Shown here piece by piece: positions 19,493-60,215 of a stretch of DNA of 64,000 nucleotides. Position numbers and translations under genes: made by a program. Within the stretch, counting starts at the first letter, position 1. Every line of letters starts with the position of its first letter. Under the pieces are notes generated by a model. The model had not been told where the DNA came from. It did no database searches and saw only the letters and a program-made list of their open reading frames with translations. Source of the DNA: Methylopila sp. 73B (GTDB lineage Bacteria > Pseudomonadota > Alphaproteobacteria > Rhizobiales > Methylopilaceae); contig NZ_JAFV01000001.1 of assembly GCF_000526315.1 (NCBI RefSeq), forward strand, positions 3,598,501 to 3,662,500, written 5' to 3'.

Positions 19493-19518
19493 GGAACGGT
19501 TGTCGTAAGGTCCGTTCC
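19493..19518. promoter_or_regulatory. inverted repeat between acvB and the esterase gene
   Basis: Arms GGAACGG and CCGTTCC are separated by 12 bases. It could be a terminator for acvB. It also reads as GGAAC, 15 bases, CGTT on both strands, close to but one base shorter than the EcfG stress promoter pattern. The two readings cannot be separated by eye. Confidence 0.35.
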
Positions 19519-49812: not shown

Positions 49813-49855
49813 CAGCCTGAAACGTCAAATTCCCCGAACCGAAGGAGTGACGCCC

Positions 49856-50503
49856 ATGAGCGCGCAGGACCTCTCGTTCGTGCATGTCCACCGGCCCGCG
49901 ACGCGGCCCGCGCTTCCCCCGCTGCTGCTGCTGCACGGCACCGGCGGCGACGAGACCGATCTCTTGCCCTTCGGGGAGGCGATCGCGCCGGGCGCGGCGC
50001 TGCTGTCGCCTCGTGGACAGGTGCTGGAGCGCGGCGCGCCGCGGTTCTTCCGCAGGCTGGCCGAAGGCGTGTTCGACGAGGACGACGTTCACCGCCGGGC
50101 GGGCGACCTCGCCCGCTTCGTCGCCGAGGCGCGCACGGCCTACGGGATCGCCGCTCCGGTCGCGCTCGGCTACTCCAACGGCGCCAACATCGCCGCGGCC
50201 CTGATGCTGCTGCATCCCGGCACGCTCGCGGGCGCCGCGCTGCTGCGGGCCATGCCGCCGCTGACGACGCCGCCCGCCGCGGAGCTTGACGCGGCTCCCG
50301 TCCTGATGCTGTCGGGCGCGCTCGACCCCATCGCCTCGGGCGCGCACGCGGCCCTGCTGGAACGGCAGCTGCGCGCGGCGGGCGCGGCGGTGACGCTCGA
50401 GACCTTGCCGGCGAGCCATGGGCTCACCCGGATGGACCTCGAGGCGGCGACCCGCTGGTACGCGCGCCTCGCCGCCGAGGGGCGGGTCGAGGCGGCGTCC
50501 TGA
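49856..50503 (+). CDS. Phospholipase/carboxylesterase-type alpha/beta hydrolase (MhqD-like)
   Basis: A 215-residue single-domain serine hydrolase: LLLLHGTGGDETDLLPFG near the start, nucleophile elbow LGYSNGANIAA (serine near residue 103), aspartate in LSGALDPI and histidine in LPASHGLTRMD. This family includes MhqD, encoded with MhqO-type dioxygenases in quinone-stress regulons, which is the arrangement here. The ribosome site GAAGGAG fixes the start. The 225-base gap before it holds a palindromic repeat. Confidence 0.85.
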   Translation: MSAQDLSFVHVHRPATRPALPPLLLLHGTGGDETDLLPFGEAIAPGAALLSPRGQVLERGAPRFFRRLAEGVFDEDDVHRRAGDLARFVAEARTAYGIAAPVALGYSNGANIAAALMLLHPGTLAGAALLRAMPPLTTPPAAELDAAPVLMLSGALDPIASGAHAALLERQLRAAGAAVTLETLPASHGLTRMDLEAATRWYARLAAEGRVEAAS

Positions 50504-50525: not shown

Positions 50526-51332
50526 TCAGCCGGCGGACGGCCGCGCGACGATCCTGTCGCCCTGGCGTGCGACGAGGCCCATCGCCTCGAAGGCGGCGAG
50601 CCAGCCCTCCATCGGCCAGCGCCTCCATTTCGCGTGGAACAGCTCCGCGTTGCGGACGATGTCGGCGAGGTGCTCGATCGGCGGGTCGCTCACGGGGTGG
50701 TGCTGGTGGAATGCCGGCGCGCCGCCGAGAAACAGCAGCGGCGTCCCCGTCGCCTGCGCCGTGAGGCCGAAGTCGGTGTCCTCGCCGCCGTAGCCGACGA
50801 AGGTCTCGTCGAAGCCGCCGAGCGCCTCGAAGGTCGCGCGGCGGACGCCGAAGGCGAGCGACCAGAACAGGCCGGGGTTCGGCTCCGGCCGCAGTCCCTC
50901 CGCGGGGAAGGGGCGCACCGGATGGGGGCGACCGGCGGCGCGGAGCGCGTCCTCCGTCCAGGGGCCGCGGGCGTCGTCGGGGCCGAGGTAGAGCGCCTCG
51001 GGGCAGATCAGCGCGTCGGCCTCGTCGAGCGCGGTCTCGATCGCGTCGATGAGTCCGGCGGAGGGGATGCAGTCGGCGTCGAGGAACAGCAGGCGGCCGC
51101 CGGTCGCCAGCCGCGCCGCGCGGTTGCGCGCCGCGGCGAGCGGTAGGGTCCTGTCGGGCAGGCGCGCCACGCTGACCGGGAACGGCGCAGGCGGCAAGGC
51201 GAGGGCGCTGTCGTTCATGTCGACGACGACCAGTTCGCGCGGGAGGCGATCCGAGCGCCGAAGCCCTTCCAGCAGGTTGAGCAGGTGAGCCGTGCGGTTG
51301 CGCGCGAGCGTCAGGACGCTGAGGTCGCTCAC
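50526..51332 (-). CDS. Family 2 glycosyltransferase (galactosyltransferase-like), last gene of glycan operon
   Basis: A 268-residue soluble GT-A enzyme. Features: SVLTLARNRTAHLLNLLEGL at the nucleotide-binding start, the metal motif FLDADC, and a chondroitin-synthase-like acceptor region with GGFDETFVGYGGEDTDFG. It transfers an activated sugar to an unknown acceptor. The start overlaps the methyltransferase stop as ATGA. It is the last of seven overlapping genes. Confidence 0.83.
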   Translation of the reverse strand: MSDLSVLTLARNRTAHLLNLLEGLRRSDRLPRELVVVDMNDSALALPPAPFPVSVARLPDRTLPLAAARNRAARLATGGRLLFLDADCIPSAGLIDAIETALDEADALICPEALYLGPDDARGPWTEDALRAAGRPHPVRPFPAEGLRPEPNPGLFWSLAFGVRRATFEALGGFDETFVGYGGEDTDFGLTAQATGTPLLFLGGAPAFHQHHPVSDPPIEHLADIVRNAELFHAKWRRWPMEGWLAAFEAMGLVARQGDRIVARPSAG

Positions 51333-51913
51333 GGCGCCCGCCGCCAGAGGTCGAGGCGGTAGCGGTCGGTCCGCTCGCTCCGGGCCGCCTGGAACGGCGC
51401 CGAGATCGCGTCGGCGAGCTTCGCCACCGCCTCGTCGCCGGTCTGCGGGTAGTCGGTCTCGCCGATCCAGTGCACCAGCAGCACGTCGCCGCCGGGGGCG
51501 AGGGCCGCGTCGATCCGCTGGCCGGCCAAGACGATGTCCGCGTCGCTCCAGTAGTAGACGACCTCGGACAGCAGGATCAGGTCGAACGCCCCCGCGGGCG
51601 CCTCCGCGGGGAAAGACGCGCGGCTGAAGCTCACGGTTTCGAGGCCCGCGCAGCGCGCGCGGGCTCTGGCCAGCGCGCTGTCGCTGACGTCCAGCGCGAC
51701 GAGGTCGCCGGCGTGGTCCGCCACCCGGCGGGTCAGCACGCCGTTGGCGCAGCCGACCTCGAGCGCGCGGTCGTAGCGGCGGCCGGCGAGCGCCGCGATC
51801 GTGCGGTCGTACTTCGCCTGTTCGTAGGCGCTGGTCTCGAAGCGCCAGGGGTCGGGGTCGGCCTTGAACATGCCCTCGAAATAGTCCGGCGGCAGGGACT
51901 GGTCAGGACGCAT
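51329..51913 (-). CDS. NodS-like SAM-dependent methyltransferase
   Basis: A 194-residue class I methyltransferase with SAM motif I ALEVGCANGVLTRRVA, motif II VALDVSDSALARAR and DLILLSEVVYYW. The start (PPDYFEGMFKADPDPWRFETSAYEQAKY) is typical of the NodS family. NodS N-methylates the deacetylated amino sugar of Nod factors. Here it lies next to a PIG-L deacetylase in place of NodB, so methylation of a freed amino group on a glycan is the natural guess. It overlaps the PIG-L gene by 11 bases. Confidence 0.85.
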   Translation of the reverse strand: MRPDQSLPPDYFEGMFKADPDPWRFETSAYEQAKYDRTIAALAGRRYDRALEVGCANGVLTRRVADHAGDLVALDVSDSALARARARCAGLETVSFSRASFPAEAPAGAFDLILLSEVVYYWSDADIVLAGQRIDAALAPGGDVLLVHWIGETDYPQTGDEAVAKLADAISAPFQAARSERTDRYRLDLWRRAP

Positions 51914-52595
51914 GGCGGAAGCTCCGGAGGTACAGCACGTCGGCGGGGGCCATGCGGCGCAGACGCTCGGGCACGCGGAAGCCGTCGCCGTGGAGCGGGG
52001 TCATCTGGCTGCGGTGGGCGGCGAGCGCGAGGCCGCGCGGGCCGGCCGGCGCGGGCTCGGTGCGGAACGCGCGGTAGCTCGCCGGCATCGCTTCCTCCGC
52101 CCAGACGACGTATTCGAACACGCGGAACGGCCGGGGGGCGGCGGCGGCCAGGGCATAGGCCAGCGCGCAGGCGGCCTTGTGATCGCAATGGGGATCGCGC
52201 CCGCTGGTGACGGCGACGGCGTCGACCTGACCCCTGCGGCAGAGCGCGGCGAGCGTGGCGAGCGCGCGCGCCCAGCGCGGGTCGCCCGCCTCGGGCGGCG
52301 CGGCGTCGGGCCAGTCGAGAAAGGTCGGCGGCGGCGCGAAGGGCGTCAGCCGCCGGAGCGCGCGGCGCGCCTCGGCGCGCCTGATGGCGGCCAGATCGCG
52401 CGGGCCGCGGTCGCCGTGGGAGGCCGCGCCGTCGGTGAGAAACGCGACGCCGGCGAGCCGGTCGTCGGCCGCCGCCTCGCGGATCAGCGCGCCGGCGCCG
52501 ATGGTCTCGTCGTCGGCGTGCGGCGCGAGCACCAGCCAGCGGGCCCTGGCCCAGGCGCTTTGGTTGAGCCGGGCGGCGGACCGAGGCGCGGTCAC
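51903..52595 (-). CDS. PIG-L/LmbE-family N-acetylglucosamine-type deacetylase
   Basis: A 230-residue zinc deacetylase. The metal site is APHADDE (His26, Asp28-Asp29, Glu30) with a second ligand region DPHCDHKAAC. Family members remove acetyl from GlcNAc-linked compounds (PIG-L in GPI, MshB in mycothiol, BshB in bacillithiol). The GTG start overlaps the stop of the acyl-CoA-dehydrogenase-like gene. The much longer open frame upstream is a shadow of other genes. Confidence 0.87.
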   Translation of the reverse strand: MTAPRSAARLNQSAWARARWLVLAPHADDETIGAGALIREAAADDRLAGVAFLTDGAASHGDRGPRDLAAIRRAEARRALRRLTPFAPPPTFLDWPDAAPPEAGDPRWARALATLAALCRRGQVDAVAVTSGRDPHCDHKAACALAYALAAAAPRPFRVFEYVVWAEEAMPASYRAFRTEPAPAGPRGLALAAHRSQMTPLHGDGFRVPERLRRMAPADVLYLRSFRHAS

Positions 52596-53698
52596 CACAG
52601 CTCGTCGCCCTCGCCCCAGACGTCGTGGTCGAGCCATGCCTTGGCGGCCTCGTCGCGGGCGTGGTCCGGGCCGGCCTGGCGGAGGTAGAGGCTGAGATCG
52701 CGGATGATCTTGTCGATCCGCGTGCCCTCGACCGCGCTGCGCGTGCCGACGAGGCGCGCGGAGAGCTCCATCACGTCGAGCGCCGCGCGCTCGACCACGC
52801 CGCGGGTCATCTGCACGAAGGGCTTGGCGTCGGGATGGTCGGCGGCGGCGCGGTCCGCCGCCTCGCGCACCCAGAGGCCCGCCCCGCGGGTCGCGGCCAC
52901 GGCCTCGCCGAACTTCGCGCGCTGCAGCGGGTCCGCGCGGGCGGCTTCGGACAGCGCCGCGCGGGTCTCGGCCAGCAGCGCTTCCACGCCGCCGAGCTGC
53001 ACGGCGAGAAACCGCCACGCCCCGGCCGTGAAGCGCGGTTCGATGTCGTAGACGCCGGGATCGCCCAGCAGGTCGTCGTCGGCGGGGCGCACCCCGGTGA
53101 CGTCGTAGGAGCCGCTCGCGGTGGCGCGCATGCCGCGCATGGTCCAGGCGGACAAATCCGTGCGGTCGGCGATGTTCGCCGCGACGACGACCAGCCGGCG
53201 CGGCCCGTCGTCCGGCCGAGCGGTGACGATGGCGTAGTCGAGGCTGCCGGCGCCGGTCGCGAACCGCTTGGCGCCGTCGAGCCGCCAGCCGAACGGGTCC
53301 CTGGCGAGGGCGACGCCGGGGGTCGGCTCGGTCGCCCAGACGCCGAACAGCCGGCCGGCGGCGAGATCCCGGGCCAAGCGCTTGTGCTGACGGTCCGAGC
53401 CGTACCAGGCGAACAGCTTCAACGCGTTGACGTGGCCCTCGAAGATGCGGCCGAGGCTGAGGTCCGCGCGCCCCACCATCCTGAGGCAATCGAACAGCGC
53501 CCGGTTCTCCTCCTGCGGCGATCGGAAGACCTCGCCGCCGGCGGCCGGCGGCGCGAAGGTCTGGTGCATCCGGGACCGAACCAGGAGCGCGGCGCTCTCG
53601 GCCGGATAGACGCCCTTCGCGTCGTAGGCCGCGCCGAGTTCGGCGAGCGCCCCGTCGAGCAGGGCGAAGCGTAACGCGGTGGCGGGAAGGTTGGTCAT
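52592..53698 (-). CDS. Acyl-CoA dehydrogenase-like flavoprotein in glycan operon
   Basis: A 368-residue protein of the acyl-CoA dehydrogenase fold. It shows GVWATEPTPGVALARDPFGWRLDGAKRFATGAG for the FAD and substrate middle domain, and a helical C-terminus (FVQMTRGVVERAALDVMELSARLVGTRSAVEG). It is slightly shorter than usual, and the classical catalytic glutamate is not evident to me. It may oxidise or desaturate a carrier-bound acyl chain, or act as a monooxygenase. It overlaps both neighbours by 4 bases. Confidence 0.8.
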   Translation of the reverse strand: MTNLPATALRFALLDGALAELGAAYDAKGVYPAESAALLVRSRMHQTFAPPAAGGEVFRSPQEENRALFDCLRMVGRADLSLGRIFEGHVNALKLFAWYGSDRQHKRLARDLAAGRLFGVWATEPTPGVALARDPFGWRLDGAKRFATGAGSLDYAIVTARPDDGPRRLVVVAANIADRTDLSAWTMRGMRATASGSYDVTGVRPADDDLLGDPGVYDIEPRFTAGAWRFLAVQLGGVEALLAETRAALSEAARADPLQRAKFGEAVAATRGAGLWVREAADRAAADHPDAKPFVQMTRGVVERAALDVMELSARLVGTRSAVEGTRIDKIIRDLSLYLRQAGPDHARDEAAKAWLDHDVWGEGDELW

Positions 53699-54726
53699 GA
53701 GGTCGCCTGATCCAGGATGAAGGCCGCCGCTTTCGCGAGGCCCGCGGGGTCGTGCAGGCCGGCGATCCGCCGGGTGTCCAGCCGCCCGGCCGCGTCGAGG
53801 GTCGCTGGCCAGTCCGCGGCGTTCGGCCAGCGCGGCCGGACGACCGCAGCGCCCAGGGCCTCGAGCGCCGCGGCCTTGGCCGCCTGCTCGCCATAGGCCC
53901 GGTCTTCGGGCACGCAGACGAAGGGACGGCCGGCGGCCGCGACCGCGCCCAGGACGCCGTCGCCGGCGCCGCCGACCACGACGCCCGCGGCGGCGATCGC
54001 ACGCTCCGGATCGTCGGTCCAGCCGAGGACGTTGAGGTTGTCGGGGCACGGCGTCGGGGGCTCGCCCGGGCCGATGACGCGCCACTCCCGCCCCGGAGTC
54101 GCGCCGGCCGCCGCGGCGAGGTCGGCGCCGGTGACGCGCGATCCCCCCCGCCCGAACGCGACCATGACGACGTTGTCGTCCGGCGCCGCCGGCTTCGGGG
54201 CGACGGCCAGCCCGCTGACGTAACGCGTCTTGGCGCGCACCCAGTCGGGCGTGCGCGGGTCCTCCAGCCGTTCGTCGAACGGCGCGAGCAGAGCCTGCGC
54301 GCCGCGGAAGGCGTCGAGATGGGCGGGATCGGACCGGTCGCCGGCCAGCCGGACGTAGACGGTGGGCGTGGCGCACAGGCGGGCGAGCATGGCGACCTCC
54401 ACGGAGACGTCGACCACGAGAAGCGCGGGGCGCCGTTCCGCGATCCAGCCTGCGATCGCGAGCGCCCGCGCGCGGACTCCATCATGATTATAGGGCGCGT
54501 AATGCAGCGCCTCCGGGCGCTCGGCGGCGTCGTCGCGGCCATCGAAGCCGTCAGCCTGCGGGCGGTCGTCGGGGATGTCGAGCGTTTCGAACGGGCCGTG
54601 CATGCCGGCGACCCCCGTGCCGATGAGCGTGAAGCGACCGGGCGCCAAGGCGGCGATGGCGGCCGCGCGGCGCCGGTGGCCTTCGCCCTGGTGATGAACG
54701 TAATAGCCGATCGGAGCTCGGCTCAC
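53695..54726 (-). CDS. MGT/MurG-like GT-B glycosyltransferase
   Basis: A 343-residue GT-B enzyme starting at GTG (MSRAPIGYYVHHQGEGHRRR). The N-terminal HHQGEGH motif and the C-terminal nucleotide-sugar region VVVGGAGDGVLGAVAAAGRPFVCVPEDRAYGEQ resemble MGT and UDP-glycosyltransferase families. Residues 190-210 (VVMVAFGRGGSRVTG) open the donor domain. The start overlaps the stop of the upstream glycosyltransferase as GTGA. Acceptor and donor are unknown. Confidence 0.8.
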   Translation of the reverse strand: MSRAPIGYYVHHQGEGHRRRAAAIAALAPGRFTLIGTGVAGMHGPFETLDIPDDRPQADGFDGRDDAAERPEALHYAPYNHDGVRARALAIAGWIAERRPALLVVDVSVEVAMLARLCATPTVYVRLAGDRSDPAHLDAFRGAQALLAPFDERLEDPRTPDWVRAKTRYVSGLAVAPKPAAPDDNVVMVAFGRGGSRVTGADLAAAAGATPGREWRVIGPGEPPTPCPDNLNVLGWTDDPERAIAAAGVVVGGAGDGVLGAVAAAGRPFVCVPEDRAYGEQAAKAAALEALGAAVVRPRWPNAADWPATLDAAGRLDTRRIAGLHDPAGLAKAAAFILDQATS

Positions 54727-55676
54727 GCCGCGACCTCCGTCGCCGCCGGCGCGTCCAGTCGGAAGTCGCACGGCATGGGAGGGAGCTCGGGCTCGAGGCT
54801 CGCGATCAGCGCGTCGCCGCCGGCGCGGCTGCGCAGATCGCGGCGCCACAGCGCGCGCTCGCGCCAGAGTTCGAAGGAGGGCAGCAGCAGGGCGTCGGAC
54901 GTCGGGTCGCCAAGCCGCGCCATCGCCGCGGCCATGCCGCCGCTCGCGCGGCCCGCGGTCCGCGGCGAGACCCGCACCCAGACGTCCAGCGGGTGCGACA
55001 ACCGGGCTCCCGCCGCCTGCGCCGCCATCACGAAGGCACAGTCCTCGCCGGTTGGGCGCAGCGGCACGCCGCCCGCCGCGCGATAGGCGGCGGCCGTGAC
55101 CGCGAGGCTCCCGCCGGTGTTGTCGCCATGCCGCGGGGGCAGGTCCCACGGCCGCGGGTCGAGTTCGTCCTCGATCCGTCGAACCTCCGCCCAATAAGCG
55201 GCGAGCGCCGCCCAGCGCGCGCGCACGAGCGCCGGCGCAGGCTCGGCCTCGTCGAGCACAAGCGCGCCGCCCACGAGGTCGGCGCCGCGATCGATCGCCG
55301 CCACGTTCGCGGAGACCCAGTGCGGCGGCGGACACGCGTCGGCGTCGGTGGTGAGCAGGACCCCGCCGCCGTCGCCGTCAAGCAACTCGAGCGCGAGGTC
55401 CATCGCCCGGCGGCGGGCGGATCCCGCATGGGCGAGTTCGGGAGGGAAAACAGCTTCGTCGATGTGAAGAACCAGTTGGTCGTGGCGCCGCGAGGACAGC
55501 CCGTCCAGGACCTCGCGCGAGGCGTCGGTCGTGTTGTTGAGCGCGACGACCACGGGCAGCGGAGACGGCCAGTCCTGCGAGGCGAGCGCCGCGATCAGCC
55601 GTGGCAGGCGTTCCGCCTCATCACGGGCCGGCACGCAGACGACGACTCGCCGAGGCTCAGGCCCGCGCGCGCTCAT
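54723..55676 (-). CDS. Family 2 glycosyltransferase
   Basis: A 317-residue GT-A enzyme: VVVCVPARDEAERLPRLIAALASQ at the start, metal motif TTDADACPPPHW, and acceptor-site GEDCAFVMAAQAAGARL. There is no membrane segment, so it acts on the cytoplasmic side. It is the second gene of the operon and overlaps the GT4 stop as ATGA. Confidence 0.83.
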   Translation of the reverse strand: MSARGPEPRRVVVCVPARDEAERLPRLIAALASQDWPSPLPVVVALNNTTDASREVLDGLSSRRHDQLVLHIDEAVFPPELAHAGSARRRAMDLALELLDGDGGGVLLTTDADACPPPHWVSANVAAIDRGADLVGGALVLDEAEPAPALVRARWAALAAYWAEVRRIEDELDPRPWDLPPRHGDNTGGSLAVTAAAYRAAGGVPLRPTGEDCAFVMAAQAAGARLSHPLDVWVRVSPRTAGRASGGMAAAMARLGDPTSDALLLPSFELWRERALWRRDLRSRAGGDALIASLEPELPPMPCDFRLDAPAATEVAA

Positions 55677-56779
55677 ACCGCGAGGGCCAGATCGGACTGG
55701 GCGATCGGGCCCCTGAGCTCAGCGCCGCCCTGAGTGGCGAGCCGACGGTACAGGTCCTCATAACTGTCGATCATCACATCCACGTCGCAATGCTGTTCGG
55801 CGCGGTCGCGGCAGGCGCGTCGGTCGAGCCGCTGGGCCGCAATCGCGGCCGCCGCAAGGCTCTCGGCGTCGTCCGGACGCGCCAGCACGCCACACGTCTG
55901 GTCGACGATCTCGGCGATCGCGCCGCGTGCGAAGGCCGCGACCGGCGTCCCGCAGGCGAGCGACTCGGCGGCGACAAGACCGTAGGGCTCCTCCCAGCAG
56001 GGTGTGAACAGCAGCGCGCGCGCCCCGCCGATCACCGCGGCGAGCCGGCCGTGCTCGAGATGCCCGAGATGGATGGCGTTGGGACCGAGCCGAGGGACGA
56101 TCTCGGCGGCGAAATAATCAGGATTTGAGATCGGCCCGGCGATCCGCAGCTGCGCGCCCGCAATGCGGGCCGCGTCCATGGCGAAATGAAGCCCCTTTTC
56201 CGGGACGATCCGTCCGGACCAGACCAGATAGGGCTCGGGGTCGGGCTCCGCCTGGAAGGCGAACCGGTCGAGGTCGATGCCGTTCAGCACAACGCCTTCG
56301 ATCGGCGCGATCGGATTCCACAGCTGGCGCAGCGCCTCCGACACCGCGACGAAGGTCGCGCGCTGCGACCGGCAGAGCCGAACGCCGCTTTCGAGCCAAC
56401 AGAACGGCGGCGTGTGCAACGTCGTCACCATCGGCGTCGCGACGGTGTCGGCCATCGCGACCGGCAGGTAGTGCAGGGCGTTGTTGTGGATGACGTCGAA
56501 GTCCCGCGAGGCGAGGTCCGTCATCAGCCTCAGATAGGCGTGGTGCTCGCGGAAGAAGGCGACGTCGGTCGCTTCCGCGACGCCGACTTCCTCGAGCGCG
56601 GTCTCGTCGCAGATCGCCTCAAGCCCGAGCGCCTTGTCCGAGCGCGTCGAGGCGAACACCGTCACATCATGATCGCGCTCGCGAAGCCCTCTCGCCAGGA
56701 GATGGGTGTGCGTCTCCAATCCGCCTGCGAAGGGCTCGCTGATCGGATGCTTCAAGTGGGCGATGATGGCGATGCGCAA
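55673..56779 (-). CDS. Family 4 glycosyltransferase, first gene of glycan operon
   Basis: A 368-residue GT-B enzyme: GGLETHTHLLARGLRERDHDV near the N-terminus, LVWSGRIVPEKGLHFAMDAAR for the donor domain, and the EX7E-type region CWEEPYGLVAAESLACGTPV. I chose the TTG at 56779, which begins MRIAIIAHLKHPI in the usual place. An in-frame ATG at 56839 would put the catalase terminator inside the coding region. There is little room for a separate promoter, so transcription may read through from katN. Confidence 0.83.
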   Translation of the reverse strand: MRIAIIAHLKHPISEPFAGGLETHTHLLARGLRERDHDVTVFASTRSDKALGLEAICDETALEEVGVAEATDVAFFREHHAYLRLMTDLASRDFDVIHNNALHYLPVAMADTVATPMVTTLHTPPFCWLESGVRLCRSQRATFVAVSEALRQLWNPIAPIEGVVLNGIDLDRFAFQAEPDPEPYLVWSGRIVPEKGLHFAMDAARIAGAQLRIAGPISNPDYFAAEIVPRLGPNAIHLGHLEHGRLAAVIGGARALLFTPCWEEPYGLVAAESLACGTPVAAFARGAIAEIVDQTCGVLARPDDAESLAAAAIAAQRLDRRACRDRAEQHCDVDVMIDSYEDLYRRLATQGGAELRGPIAQSDLALAV

Positions 56780-56833: not shown

Positions 56834-56850
56834 TCCCATGAGCCGAGATG

Positions 56851-57765
56851 TCAGAGCTTCGCGTGCAGCTTCGACGCGATCTCGAAAATCTCGGACGGGT
56901 CGTAGTCCGTCGTGAAGGCGGAGGACGCCCCCTTCAGTTCGTCGATCTTGCCGCCGTCGGGATGGCCCGAAACGACTTCCAGATCGCCGGGCGGGTCGCC
57001 CGGGAGAGCCTTCTCGCCGCCGCCCCAGACCGCTTCCATCTCGCGGTAGGTCTCCTCGCCCCAAGTGTAGAGGCGCCGGTGACTGCCCTCGTCGAGGTAC
57101 TTCTGCGCCTCGGGGATCTTGGACAGGTCGATGTTCGGCGTCGGCAGCATCTTCTCCATCTCGACGCCCGTGAGCTTCTTCAGCGCGAGAGCGTAGGCAT
57201 GCGCATGGACGGAGCCGCGCACCAGCAGATAACCGCAGACCTCACGGCCGGTCGGATCCGACAGGGTCTCGTAGACGCGAAGCTTGTGCATCCGCGCGCC
57301 GCACTCGAGGAAGAAGTTGTGCAGCAGATCGAGCACGAGATTTCCGGTCGAGAACACGAACGTGCCGTTCCACGGCAGTCCGTTGGAATCGACCGGCATG
57401 GCGCCGCCGCCCGCGTGCAGGAAGGAGGCCGCCGAGCGGATGTCCTTCATGTCCTCGAACGGCGCCTGCGAGATATCTCCCTTATGCTCCTTCTCCGGCG
57501 AAGGGCCGTTCGCGAGCATCGTGATTCCGTTCGCGACCAGCTCGACGTGACCAAGCTCTTCGGCCGTAATGCTGGCCACGAGGCTGTAGAACGGCATCAC
57601 CTTCGATTTGTTACGAAAATTAAAGCTCTGATACATATAGTTATTCAGAGTGGACATTTCACCAAACTTGCCGCCGAGCAGCTCCTGCAACGCCGCTGCA
57701 GCGTTGGGATCGGCCCTTTTCGGCTTCGGAAGTTCAGCCTGAAGCTTGTCGATTCGCATGAACAT
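56851..57765 (-). CDS. Manganese catalase
   Basis: A 304-residue non-haem catalase with a ferritin-like four-helix core. The dimanganese ligand regions are GEMSTLNNYMYQSFNFR with AEELGHVELV in the first half and HNFFLECGARMHKLRVYE with LLVRGSVHAHAYA in the second. It destroys hydrogen peroxide. The gene is co-directional with the YciF-type gene 75 bases upstream and with the glycan operon downstream, a general-stress setting. Confidence 0.9.
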   Translation of the reverse strand: MFMRIDKLQAELPKPKRADPNAAAALQELLGGKFGEMSTLNNYMYQSFNFRNKSKVMPFYSLVASITAEELGHVELVANGITMLANGPSPEKEHKGDISQAPFEDMKDIRSAASFLHAGGGAMPVDSNGLPWNGTFVFSTGNLVLDLLHNFFLECGARMHKLRVYETLSDPTGREVCGYLLVRGSVHAHAYALALKKLTGVEMEKMLPTPNIDLSKIPEAQKYLDEGSHRRLYTWGEETYREMEAVWGGGEKALPGDPPGDLEVVSGHPDGGKIDELKGASSAFTTDYDPSEIFEIASKLHAKL

Positions 57766-57840: not shown

Positions 57841-58386
57841 TCAGGCGGCCTTGGAGGGCGCCTTCGTCGAAGCCTTGGCGCCGGTCGGCTTGTCCGTGGT
57901 CTCGCCCGTGACATCGAGGCCGAGCGCGATCTTGGACAGCAGTTCGTCCGCCTTCTTTTCTTCCGCGAGCGTCTGCTCGAGCAGCGGCACGGCTTCGTCG
58001 TAGCCGAGCTTGCCGGCCCAGGTCTTCAGCAGGCCGTAGCGTGCGATCTCGTAATGCTCCACCGCCTGCGCGCAGCCGATCAGGACATCGTCCGAGGCTT
58101 CGGTGCCGCCGAAGTCCTCGAGATCTTCCTCCATTTCGGAGGTGATTCCGGACATCGCTTCGCAGGTCTTCGCGCGGGCCGGCTTTCCGATGATCTCGAA
58201 CACCTGAGTCAGGCGTTCGACCTGCTCCTGGCTTTCCTCGAGATGGTTTTCGAAAGCGGTCTTCAGCTCCGAAGACTGCGCGGCCTTGGCGGATTTCTTG
58301 AGCGCGCGGACGGACTGCTTCTCGGCGTAGTACACATCCTTGAGCGTCTCGTGAAAGGCGTCCGCGAGGGTCTTTTCCTTGGCCAA
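57841..58386 (-). CDS. YciE/YciF-family ferritin-like stress protein (DUF892)
   Basis: A 181-residue helical protein: FHETLKDVYYAEKQSVRALKKSAKAA, FENHLEESQEQVERL and AVEHYEIARYGLLKTWA carry the family's conserved glutamate and histidine residues of a ferritin-like diiron site. The C-terminal 20 residues are a Lys/Ala/Thr tail. Members are induced by stress in many proteobacteria. It is the first gene before katN, with an EcfG-like promoter 33-57 bases upstream. Confidence 0.87.
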   Translation of the reverse strand: MAKEKTLADAFHETLKDVYYAEKQSVRALKKSAKAAQSSELKTAFENHLEESQEQVERLTQVFEIIGKPARAKTCEAMSGITSEMEEDLEDFGGTEASDDVLIGCAQAVEHYEIARYGLLKTWAGKLGYDEAVPLLEQTLAEEKKADELLSKIALGLDVTGETTDKPTGAKASTKAPSKAA

Positions 58387-58503: not shown

Positions 58504-58752
58504 TTATACGCGTATACGATCAGCGATCTGCAGCTCGATCCAACGTTCGGCCGCCTGCAAGTTGGCGAACAACGGAGGCTTCGTGCTCTCCACGCCGTTG
58601 AAGCCGGCCTCGAGGCTCCACTGGCCCTTGGCGGGTCCGTGGCTCGGATCGTCGAGCCTGACGATGACGGCGACGAGCCGACCCTCATGCAGCACGAGCC
58701 GTCCCTCTTCGTCGGCGGAGTCCGTCGCAACCCTAATCTCTTGGAACTCCAT
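58504..58752 (-). CDS. Small conserved hypothetical protein
   Basis: An 82-residue protein (MEFQEIRVATDSADEEGRLVLHEGRLVAV and so on) that looks like a compact beta-rich fold with one C-terminal helix (NLQAAERWIELQIADRI). I do not recognise a family. Its ATG overlaps the stop of the upstream Crp/Fnr gene, which supports it being a real, co-translated gene. Confidence 0.65.
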   Translation of the reverse strand: MEFQEIRVATDSADEEGRLVLHEGRLVAVIVRLDDPSHGPAKGQWSLEAGFNGVESTKPPLFANLQAAERWIELQIADRIRV

Positions 58753-59489
58753 CAAGCGCGCCCTTCGGATGACTCGTCACGGTCTTTACGGAAGTGGAGA
58801 TAAGAGGGATCAAAGTCGGCGAAGGACTTGAGCGCCCCGACGTCCGGGATCGCGATCTCGCGGTTGGTCTGCTGGATCAGACCCGAGCTGCGCAGCTTCT
58901 GGAGCGCGCGGTTGACCGACACGGTGGTGAGGCCGACCGTGTCCCCGAGCTCCGCCTGCGACAGCTCCAGCCGGAAGCTGTCGCTCGTGGCTTCGCCCAC
59001 CACCTGCAGCCGGACGAGCAGCTCGCACAGAATGTGCGCCACGCGGACGCTCGGGGTGCGGCGGCCCATGTTGACGAGCCACTCGCGCAGGATCGAGGCG
59101 TTCACGAGCTCCGACCACCACAGCGCGCGCGCGAGCGCCGGCCGCGAGGTCAGCATGAGGATGTGCTCCTCGCTCAGCTCCGCGATCCGGCAGGCGGTCC
59201 GCGCCGCCATGCCATGGTCCATCCGATCGAGCAGGAAGCCGTAGAGGTCGCAGAAGTCGCCCGGCACGAGATAGCCGAGGATCTGCCGCTTCCCGTCCGC
59301 CAGGGTCTTGTAGCGGTAGCCGTGACCCTCAAGGATGACGTGCACGACGTCGGTCCGCTCGCCCTCGCGGACGATGTCGTCGCCGGCCTTCAGCGGCCGC
59401 CCACGCCCCACCACGGCGTGCAGCAGCGCTCTGTCGTCGTCGGGAAGGGGATGTAGCGCCTCGAGCTTGCCGAGGATAGCGGCGGACAT
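58752..59489 (-). CDS. Crp/Fnr-family transcriptional regulator
   Basis: A 245-residue regulator: a cyclic-nucleotide-binding-like beta barrel (GDDIVREGERTDVVHVILEGHGYRYK, GDFCDLYGF), a long helix, and a C-terminal helix-turn-helix (LSQAELGDTVGLTTVSVNRALQKLRSSGLI). It has no N-terminal cysteine cluster, so it is not an oxygen-sensing FNR. It belongs to a Rhizobiales group often found near stress genes. GGAGG lies 8 bases before the ATG, and a 28-base inverted repeat lies 52 bases upstream. Confidence 0.88.
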   Translation of the reverse strand: MSAAILGKLEALHPLPDDDRALLHAVVGRGRPLKAGDDIVREGERTDVVHVILEGHGYRYKTLADGKRQILGYLVPGDFCDLYGFLLDRMDHGMAARTACRIAELSEEHILMLTSRPALARALWWSELVNASILREWLVNMGRRTPSVRVAHILCELLVRLQVVGEATSDSFRLELSQAELGDTVGLTTVSVNRALQKLRSSGLIQQTNREIAIPDVGALKSFADFDPSYLHFRKDRDESSEGRA

Positions 59490-59540
59490 GCAGTGCCTCC
59501 TGAACGCGGCGGTCGTCACACGTCGCCGCGACATAGGGCA

Positions 59541-59568
59541 CCGCCAACGCGTCGGTAGCCGTTGGCGG
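59541..59568. promoter_or_regulatory. inverted repeat upstream of the Crp/Fnr gene
   Basis: CCGCCAACG and CGTTGGCGG are perfect 9-base arms 10 bases apart, in the gap between the Crp/Fnr gene and the divergent periplasmic protein gene. It may be an operator shared by both, for example for self-regulation. It does not match the usual TTGAT-N4-ATCAA box. Confidence 0.5.
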
Positions 59569-59606
59569 AACGAACGTCCCACAGGCCGCCGTCGCGGTTG
59601 CGGCAT

Positions 59607-59632
59607 GGAACGACCCCGCCCGCTGGCGGGTT
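59607..59632 (+). promoter_or_regulatory. EcfG-like promoter of the PepSY-like gene
   Basis: GGAAC (59607-59611), 17 bases, then GGTT (59629-59632), against the EcfG pattern GGAAC-N16/17-CGTT. It ends 31 bases before the ATG at 59664. It would place this gene in the same stress regulon as the yciF-like gene. Confidence 0.4.
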
Positions 59633-59663
59633 GCTGGGGCGAAGACACCCACGACCCCAGAGC

Positions 59664-60215
59664 ATGATGACCAATCCCCAGCGCTACCTTCGTTGCGTCG
59701 CGATCTGCGCGAGCGTGGTTCTCGCCCCGGCTCCGGGGCTGGCGCAGAGCCCAGGCCCGAGCCGCGTCCAGGGCGCGGCGTCCGGAAACGTGGACGTGCG
59801 CTTCAAGCTTCCGCACGCCATCGGGATTGCGGAGCGGGAGGGGCGCGGCAAGGCGATCAGCGCCGTCTTCACGCCCTTCGCGGCGGGCGGCGGCGCTCTC
59901 GAAGTGACGGTCATGCGGCCGGACAAGACGGTCGTGAAGTACCGCGTGGACGCCAACAACGGCTCTGTAATCAATGTCTCCGAGCAGACGATCGAAAGCT
60001 ACGTCTCGTCGATCGATCCCGCGGCGCTGGCCGGCCTGACGTTTTCGATGGTCCAGGCCGTCACGGCGACGGAAGGCCAGGCGGACGGCGGCGCGGTCGT
60101 GGGCGCCGAGGTGCAGACCGAGGGCGACGGCCTCGCCTACGAGGTCAGCGTCGTGAAGGACGGCGAGACCAAGGCCTTCACCGTCACCCCCGACGGAAAG
60201 GTCGCCGCGGACTGA
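59664..60215 (+). CDS. Secreted PepSY-like protein of unknown function
   Basis: A 183-residue protein with a signal peptide (to about GLAQ28). Near residues 85-115 and again near 150-180 it has short beta patterns seen in PepSY-type modules (VTVMRPDKTVVKYRVDANNG, YEVSVVKDGETKAFTVTPDGKV in pieces). These modules are often inhibitory or ligand-binding domains in the periplasm. It is divergent from the Crp/Fnr gene and shares its regulatory gap. Either ATG, 59664 or 59667, could start it. Confidence 0.65.
   Translation: MMTNPQRYLRCVAICASVVLAPAPGLAQSPGPSRVQGAASGNVDVRFKLPHAIGIAEREGRGKAISAVFTPFAAGGGALEVTVMRPDKTVVKYRVDANNGSVINVSEQTIESYVSSIDPAALAGLTFSMVQAVTATEGQADGGAVVGAEVQTEGDGLAYEVSVVKDGETKAFTVTPDGKVAAD

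Follow-up and report, generated by a model that had tools for sequence, protein, structure and literature searches.

What does an operon make that combines four glycosyltransferases with a sugar deacetylase, a NodS-like methyltransferase, and a flavoprotein that resembles acyl-CoA dehydrogenases? Such an operon, seven genes long, lies in a 64,000-nucleotide stretch of the Methylopila sp. 73B genome (contig NZ_JAFV01000001.1, positions 3,598,501 to 3,662,500; hereafter the window). The genome comprises 4.38 Mb in two contigs. We find that the genes at the center of this operon are a well-supported conserved unit, and the seven genes form a real, conserved, and apparently undescribed pathway. 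No description of the cassette was found in the open-licence literature, covered by titles and the starts of abstracts and largely missing subscription journals. Our tentative answer, to which we assign somewhat less than an even chance, is that its product is a small molecule, soluble in the cytoplasm, that protects against stress: a short oligosaccharide with a non-reducing disaccharide as its base and a modified amino sugar attached. The proposal starts from the gene families, the conserved residues, the conservation of the unit, and its linkage to disaccharide and stress genes, all observed; we infer the acceptor (sucrose, trehalose, or a close analogue), the order of steps, the product, and its protective effect.

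Seven overlapping genes form the operon

The original prediction, made from the letters of the window, described seven minus-strand genes joined by 4- to 11-base overlaps. Seven open reading frames (ORFs) occupy positions 50526-56779 where it placed them, all on the minus strand, and their stop and start positions bear out overlaps of 4, 4, 4, 4, 11, and 4 bases between consecutive genes. Read 5′ to 3′ on the minus strand, the genes, with lengths in amino acids (aa) and the evidence for each, are:

55673..56779, minus strand: GT4 glycosyltransferase, 368 aa, TTG start, GT-B (Pfam, profile search)
54723..55676, minus strand: GT2a glycosyltransferase, 317 aa (Pfam)
53695..54726, minus strand: GT1/GT28-like ("MGT-like") glycosyltransferase, 343 aa, called GT1-like below (Pfam, AlphaFold 2 (AF2) model)
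52592..53698, minus strand: flavoprotein with the acyl-CoA dehydrogenase (ACAD) fold, 368 aa (profile, AlphaFold model)
51903..52595, minus strand: PIG-L/LmbE-type zinc de-N-acetylase, 230 aa (Pfam, conserved residues)
51329..51913, minus strand: NodS-like S-adenosylmethionine (SAM) methyltransferase, 194 aa (Pfam)
50526..51332, minus strand: GT2b glycosyltransferase, 268 aa, last gene of the operon (Pfam)

The 4-base overlaps join GT4 (stop 55673) to GT2a (ATG 55676), GT2a (stop 54723) to GT1-like (GTG 54726), GT1-like (stop 53695) to the flavoprotein gene (ATG 53698), the flavoprotein gene (stop 52592) to PIG-L (GTG 52595), and the methyltransferase gene (stop 51329) to GT2b (GTG 51332). PIG-L (stop 51903) overlaps the methyltransferase gene (ATG 51913) by 11 bases, and an alternative PIG-L start at GTG 52598 would extend its own overlap with the flavoprotein gene to 7 bases. 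For GT4, an alignment favors the TTG start at 56779, as the resulting MRIA... matches up with the first residues of TeGSS, a solved glycosyltransferase described below; a further possible start, ATG, lies upstream at 56839.

Pfam assigns the seven proteins to the GT4, GT2, GT28-C, acyl-CoA dehydrogenase, PIG-L, NodS, and GT2 families, in agreement with the labels given in the original prediction, and finds no membrane, flippase, or polymerase family among them, as that prediction had also stated for polymerases and flippases. A membrane-segment-like hydropathy (19-residue peak of 1.87) occurs at residue 101 of GT1-like, where the segment sits in a strand-helix of the AF2 fold; the other six proteins peak at or below 1.38.

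Conservation of the operon and its core

A genome scan with the flavoprotein gave at least 543 places encoding relatives. Because only the best 80 were kept as named genome loci, these lean toward Alphaproteobacteria. The seven-gene order, counted on those seven genes and ignoring insertions, is kept in 43 of the 80 named loci (45 of all 119 loci scanned) and persists down to 55% flavoprotein identity, which is the recurrence in other genomes that the original prediction had proposed to look for. It is found among Methylopila, Hansschlegelia, Chenggangzhangella, Bosea, Brevundimonas, Sphingobium, Novosphingobium, Sphingomonas, Stakelama, Hyphomonas, and Porphyrobacter. Between the window and Methylopila capsulata DSM 6130, the flavoproteins share 97% identity. 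The seven genes are thus conserved in order more than by chance.

Plasmid records contain both the full set and a smaller one. A protein search recovered the complete set of seven in Novosphingobium and Sphingobium, where it follows a catalase gene. A core consisting of the flavoprotein, PIG-L, the NodS-like methyltransferase, and one GT2 is present in Deinococcus, Komagataeibacter, Bradyrhizobium, Roseomonas, Sulfitobacter, and Jiella, as well as in Nostoc (by sequence) and Kitasatospora (by annotation). The GT2a family also recurs with the core in other lineages.

To count partners, we used the 104 loci with more than 3.5 kb on both sides of the flavoprotein gene and called a partner near if it lay within 3.5 kb. 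The methyltransferase is near in 100 of these loci, PIG-L in 94, and GT2 in 93. PIG-L and the methyltransferase are both near in 94 of the 104, which answers the concern, raised with the original prediction, that homologues might be scattered in other genomes. Loci cut near either end of the flavoprotein gene were excluded, including two (L077 and L096) without partners. Across 140 loci, the pairwise distances of the flavoprotein, PIG-L, and methyltransferase correlate with r of 0.83-0.91, values that carry no species-tree control.

Occurrence is patchy: relatives were found in 11 of 121 genomes from the same order, in 20 of 299 from the phylum, and in 5 of 289 from the class, the Methylopila genome being counted in each. 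Other samples gave 4 of 274 (class of genome G392), 33 of 148 (its family), 21 of 200 (family of G304), and 6 of 194 (order of G246); thresholds and profiles differ among all these counts. Stretches were taken from 30 of the 33, all 21, and all 6 genomes with a match in the last three samples. One of them, L263 from the family of G392, carries the core with GT2b, GT1-like, and GT4, the last two on the opposite strand, and is a seven-gene set outside Alphaproteobacteria.

Two variants were also seen. Downstream of the core, seven genomes of one genus (L132, L133, L250-L253, and L295) carry an additional PIG-L gene. L289 is a second copy within one genome with an in-frame TGA in its flavoprotein gene, perhaps a decaying paralogue.

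Linkage to trehalose and sucrose genes

Gene linkage suggests what the acceptor could be. In gamma- and betaproteobacteria, genes for trehalose or sucrose are frequent companions of the core. We examined 65 non-alphaproteobacterial loci, made up of extended stretches from genomes of the same phylum and five plasmid stretches. A trehalose, sucrose, or alpha-glucan gene is present in 36 of the 65 and in none of 40 control stretches, which came from the genomes of L128-L147 and not from those of L250-L299. In 19 of the 65, such a gene is adjacent to the core on the same strand (14 glgX, 4 otsA, and 1 SPS-SPP). In the glgX loci, malQ and treY precede glgX, and the core follows; in L255, L257, L259, L260, and L293, the distance from the glgX stop to the nearest possible flavoprotein start is -1 to +3 bp. 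The core of Comamonas antarctica is flanked by otsA and otsB. Among representative proteins, TreY, GlgX, MalQ, and the trehalose-phosphatase of Comamonas score above the NCBIfam cut-offs, while the OtsA, SPS-N, and bacterial SPP-domain models were matched below cut-off. Pseudomonas stress operons for trehalose and alpha-glucan that contain malQ-treY-glgX genes are described in the accessible part of PMC8084333.

SPS-SPP genes accompany members of the seven-gene type. In L134, SPS-SPP, GT1-like, GT2b, methyltransferase, and flavoprotein genes form a single run; in L022, a Jiella plasmid, SPP overlaps GT2b by 4 bp and GT4 is divergent; and L139 contains SPS-SPP and a GT4 within the same stretch.

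The nearest solved relative of the operon's GT4 is 7fg9 (TeGSS, tll1591; 8e-46), followed by a tetrahydrobiopterin glucosyltransferase. According to the accessible part of PMC9909042, TeGSS is a glucosylsucrose synthase that glucosylates sucrose and needs Tyr18 and Arg179 for activity, the SPS gene adjoins tll1591, and sucrose and glucosylsucroses increase under salt and heat stress. GT4 keeps Arg179 and Lys184 of TeGSS. The AF2 model of GT1-like resembles CalG3, CalG1, and OleD, which are transferases for small molecules, and this predicted GT1-like fold agrees with the "MGT-like" label given earlier.

Stress genes often lie near the core

The original prediction took the stress genes upstream of the operon to suggest a protective role. 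Using a stress panel chosen from the plasmid-record neighborhoods and the window, we found that 9 of the 20 loci L128-L147 (L140 was retained although mostly masked by 13,500 N) have a panel gene near the core. Of 40 control stretches drawn from these genomes, 1 has such a gene (p 9e-5), a contrast that supports the stress context. In the window, the genes upstream of the operon are:

56851..57765, minus strand: manganese catalase, directly upstream, 71 bp before GT4
57841..58386, minus strand: DUF892 protein, same strand as the operon
58752..59816, minus strand: Crp/Fnr-family regulator, start uncertain

At the other end, an MhqD-like carboxylesterase gene (49838-50503; NCBIfam 120 of 325 bits) converges with the end of the operon.

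Among the 64 named loci longer than 15 kb, 31 contain a catalase (heme KatE or manganese) and 18 a Crp/Fnr gene. Six loci (Chenggangzhangella, two Bosea, one Brevundimonas, and two unclassified Hyphomicrobiales) have a 2.1-2.2 kb stretch with a heme catalase gene between GT4 and GT2a. Neighbors across loci include KatE, manganese catalase, DUF892, PA2169, Ku-LigD, GlgE, and TopIB.

We also looked for the EcfG promoter motif, GGAAC-N15-17-[CG]GTT, in the 320 bp that precede the first gene (2 of the 80 loci were dropped). It occurs in 1 of the 44 loci with seven genes and in 2 of the 34 with the core only, a frequency (3 of 78) that slightly exceeds the 0.009 expected per locus, and the window has no such motif upstream on the operon strand. 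EcfG control through a canonical promoter is thus not supported as a rule. The EcfG list for S. melonis includes glycosyltransferases and catalases, and the term LmbE does not appear in the main text of the source as far as accessible (PMC6599016). Elsewhere in the window, overlapping EcfG-type motifs on both strands at 19493-19518 form a possible divergent general-stress promoter.

Enzymes that could modify an amino sugar

The original prediction reasoned that a PIG-L deacetylase would expose an amino group for a NodS-like methyltransferase, and the chemistry is plausible. The PIG-L protein scores 67.9 bits in Pfam against a cut-off of 28.2, and the named solved structures closest to it are those of diacetylchitobiose deacetylases. 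Its HxDD and HxDH motifs, which we take to supply the metal and base residues, are invariant (H26, D28, D29, H136, D138, and H139 in 17 of 17 rows), in support of that logic. For the methyltransferase family, the closest solved structure is 4isc (6e-45; deposited as "Methyltransferase"), followed by the NodS structure 3ofj; the protein passes the Pfam NodS model (64.7 bits, cut-off 24) and fails the NCBIfam NodS equivalog (76.2 versus 300 bits).

The flavoprotein is nearest to group-D flavin monooxygenases by profile and by fold rank. A profile search of the PDB with its family placed DszC (2.9e-23), 5z8t, 5gj7, TdsC, and the methanesulfinate monooxygenase MsuC first. The AlphaFold model (pLDDT 88.9) matched 5gj7, 5z8t (a flavin-containing monooxygenase), TdsC, MAB_4123, DszC, and DnmZ. 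The first 26 fold matches are monooxygenases or the nitrososynthase DnmZ, except 5gj7, deposited as a putative acyl-CoA dehydrogenase; 2dvl, named an acyl-CoA dehydrogenase in the profile search, appears at rank 27. Identity to the group-D fold relatives is about 20%, and the top NCBIfam models, SfnB and DszC, both score far below cut-off. The accessible part of PMC6165268 states that group D members share a domain with acyl-CoA dehydrogenases and includes N-hydroxylation among the reactions described for the group. An oxidation step would follow from the predicted fold.

The protein has a signature of its own, R84-x2-E87-G-H89-x-N91 and Y338-L-R-Q341, in which E87, H89, and Q341 are invariant, as are W121 and K144, in 60 of 60 rows and in 13 of 13 distant non-alphaproteobacterial rows. 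We assume that the catalytic glutamate of acyl-CoA dehydrogenases lies at position 376 of MCAD or, in isovaleryl-type enzymes, at position 254 of IVD, and we set the register from the RDxxxY and FxxxR motifs rather than from an alignment to MCAD or IVD. In that register, the MCAD position is A, P, or G342 and the isovaleryl-type position is W228 in 60 of 60 rows, without a glutamate; in the 13 non-alphaproteobacterial rows, the two positions hold S/Q/H/C and A/I/G/V/L. The flavoprotein, judged from these residues and from the profile and fold ranks, is probably not an acyl-CoA dehydrogenase.

Weighing the stress-protectant proposal

Several observations weigh against a disaccharide-based stress protectant. 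The 14 glgX loci come from only four genera of one family, and 29 of the 65 non-alphaproteobacterial loci have no disaccharide gene in the stretch. Such genes occur in just 5 of 84 further loci longer than 15 kb (alphaproteobacterial except L016 and L020) and in 2 of the 64 named loci of that length. The window holds no gene of the trehalose, sucrose, and alpha-glucan panel; an OtsA gene lies elsewhere in the Methylopila genome. Taken singly, OtsA/OtsB (2 of 20 loci versus 0 of 40 controls, p 0.11) and catalase (4 of 20 versus 1 of 40, p 0.04) give weaker contrasts. In seven genomes of one genus (L264-L267, L296, L297, and L299), Ku-LigD lies directly upstream of the core instead, so that shared stress regulation could explain every linkage; there, Ku-LigD and the core possibly form one operon with double-strand-break repair. 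Trp10 and Tyr18 of TeGSS are replaced in GT4 by Lys10 and Ala18, and GT4 is for this reason not a glucosylsucrose synthase. The unit itself has exceptions: PIG-L is not near the core in L134, and four flavoprotein genes (L015, L092, L098, and L100; Methylobacterium/Beijerinckiaceae) have no PIG-L, methyltransferase, or GT2 within 3.5 kb, which suggests displaced or repurposed copies. For the flavoprotein, several acyl-CoA dehydrogenases outrank KijD3, a nitrososynthase, and DnmZ in the profile search, and the TM-scores of dehydrogenases and monooxygenases overlap without separation. The DszC catalytic residues, presumably H92, Y96, and H391, correspond to R84, G88, and Q341 (the last by an extended alignment register); because they are not kept, the chemistry of the flavoprotein can only be proposed.

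Among the alternatives, a stress-induced glycolipid or surface glycan survives best; we consider it possible, though rather doubtful. The links to trehalose, sucrose, catalase, and Ku-LigD genes would then reflect membership of a stress island only, as the functionally mixed neighbors of the core might suggest. The best NCBIfam match of GT4, which also speaks against a disaccharide acceptor, is GlcNAc-phosphatidylglycerol synthase, at 61 of 480 bits and so far below cut-off, and GT4 matches PimA at about 1e-8. However, none of the seven proteins falls into a flippase, polymerase, exporter, or membrane family in Pfam, and the tight junctions between glgX and the flavoprotein gene and the overlap of SPP with GT2b resemble pathway operons rather than loose islands.

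We think it distinctly unlikely that the operon makes an antibiotic-type amino sugar, in which a nitrososynthase-like N-oxygenase would yield a nitro- or hydroxylamino-sugar metabolite for secretion. The profile and fold relatives of the flavoprotein do include KijD3, DnmZ, and a nitrososynthase, and N-hydroxylation is a group D reaction (PMC6165268, accessible part), but no deoxysugar, aglycone, or exporter family is found by Pfam among the seven genes, and conservation beside stress genes is unlike a secondary metabolite.

By analogy with mycothiol and bacillithiol, the combination of a GT4, a PIG-L protein, and an amine modification could also point to a redox cofactor or a low-molecular-weight thiol-like pseudodisaccharide, a product that catalase neighbors would suit and that we regard as highly improbable. 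PIG-L matches BshB1 (29.9 of 182.5 bits) and GT4 matches BshA (38.7 of 273.7) and MshA (30.6 of 462.5), all far below the curated cut-offs. The original prediction had seen no BshC gene, and BshC was not found in the Methylopila genome with a profile that was detected in 3 controls; the MshC profile gave only matches below cut-off there, with matches in 14 of 14 control genomes and above cut-off in one.

A true acyl-CoA or acyl-ACP dehydrogenase leading to an N-acylated product, as the original prediction had allowed, can be set aside almost entirely: Pfam Acyl-CoA_dh_1 matches above cut-off and the TM-scores to dehydrogenases are as high as those to monooxygenases, but neither assumed base position holds a glutamate, on which ground we reject acyl-CoA dehydrogenase function; an acylated product is unsupported, and Pfam assigns none of the operon's proteins to an acyltransferase or acyl carrier family.

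A proposed pathway

For a soluble stress protectant, the steps could run as follows. GT4, GT2a, GT1-like, and GT2b would build the chain, one of them adding an N-acetylhexosamine, from which PIG-L would take off the acetyl group. The NodS-like enzyme would methylate the freed amine. The substrate of the ACAD-fold flavoprotein would be the same sugar and not an acyl-CoA; the enzyme would draw reduced flavin from a general reductase and oxidize the sugar by N- or C-hydroxylation. The core would be a conserved modifying cassette, with the other three transferases as lineage-specific elaboration.

A bolder version, which we think unlikely, is that the products are a new class of compatible solutes: sucrose- or trehalose-based oligosaccharides that bear an N-methylated, N-oxygenated amino sugar (a hydroxylamine or nitrone), come from a mobile cassette of four genes that joins whichever disaccharide pathway its host has, and double as chemical antioxidants. 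Such an antioxidant role, if true, would explain the frequent catalase neighbors.

Genes that are annotated singly, as acyl-CoA dehydrogenase, PIG-L, NodS-like methyltransferase, or glycosyltransferase, are one cassette in several bacterial phyla. If the cassette modifies trehalose or sucrose, its products would be stress protectants of a kind overlooked so far, and the systematic mis-annotation of its genes under acyl-CoA dehydrogenase and nodulation could be corrected.

Comparison with known systems

Nod factor synthesis (NodC, NodB, NodA, and NodS) shares with the operon the logic of a deacetylated, N-methylated amino sugar and the match to Pfam NodS and 3ofj. It differs in its deacetylase, which is NodB there and PIG-L here, and the NCBIfam equivalog cut-offs for Nod factor enzymes are not reached (NodS, 76.2 of 300 bits), scores on which we rejected a Nod factor pathway. 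NodA had no match in the Methylopila genome and none in the control genomes either.

Bacillithiol and mycothiol synthesis have a GT4 and a PIG-L deacetylase in common with the operon, which has an extra methyltransferase and flavin enzyme. Both were rejected as identities of the pathway: for bacillithiol, BshA and BshB1 fall below cut-off and BshC is missing from the genome; for mycothiol, MshA and MshC fall below cut-off.

Of the group-D flavin monooxygenases (DszC, TdsC, MsuC, KijD3, and DnmZ), the first three stand at the top of the profile search with the flavoprotein family, and TdsC, DszC, and DnmZ at the top of the fold comparison; the flavoprotein differs in its own signature, E87-G-H89 and R340-Q341, in place of what we take to be the DszC residues.

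TeGSS is closest to GT4 among solved structures, and SPS-SPP genes lie near related seven-gene members as SPS lies near tll1591 (PMC9909042, accessible part); the two enzymes differ at positions 10 and 18, Trp and Tyr in TeGSS and Lys and Ala in GT4. The Pseudomonas malQ-treY-glgX operons consist of the same genes that precede the core in the 14 glgX loci. In the main text on P. aeruginosa (PMC8084333), as far as accessible, no acyl-CoA dehydrogenase, methyltransferase, or deacetylase is mentioned; relative to those operons, the cassette that follows glgX is an addition.

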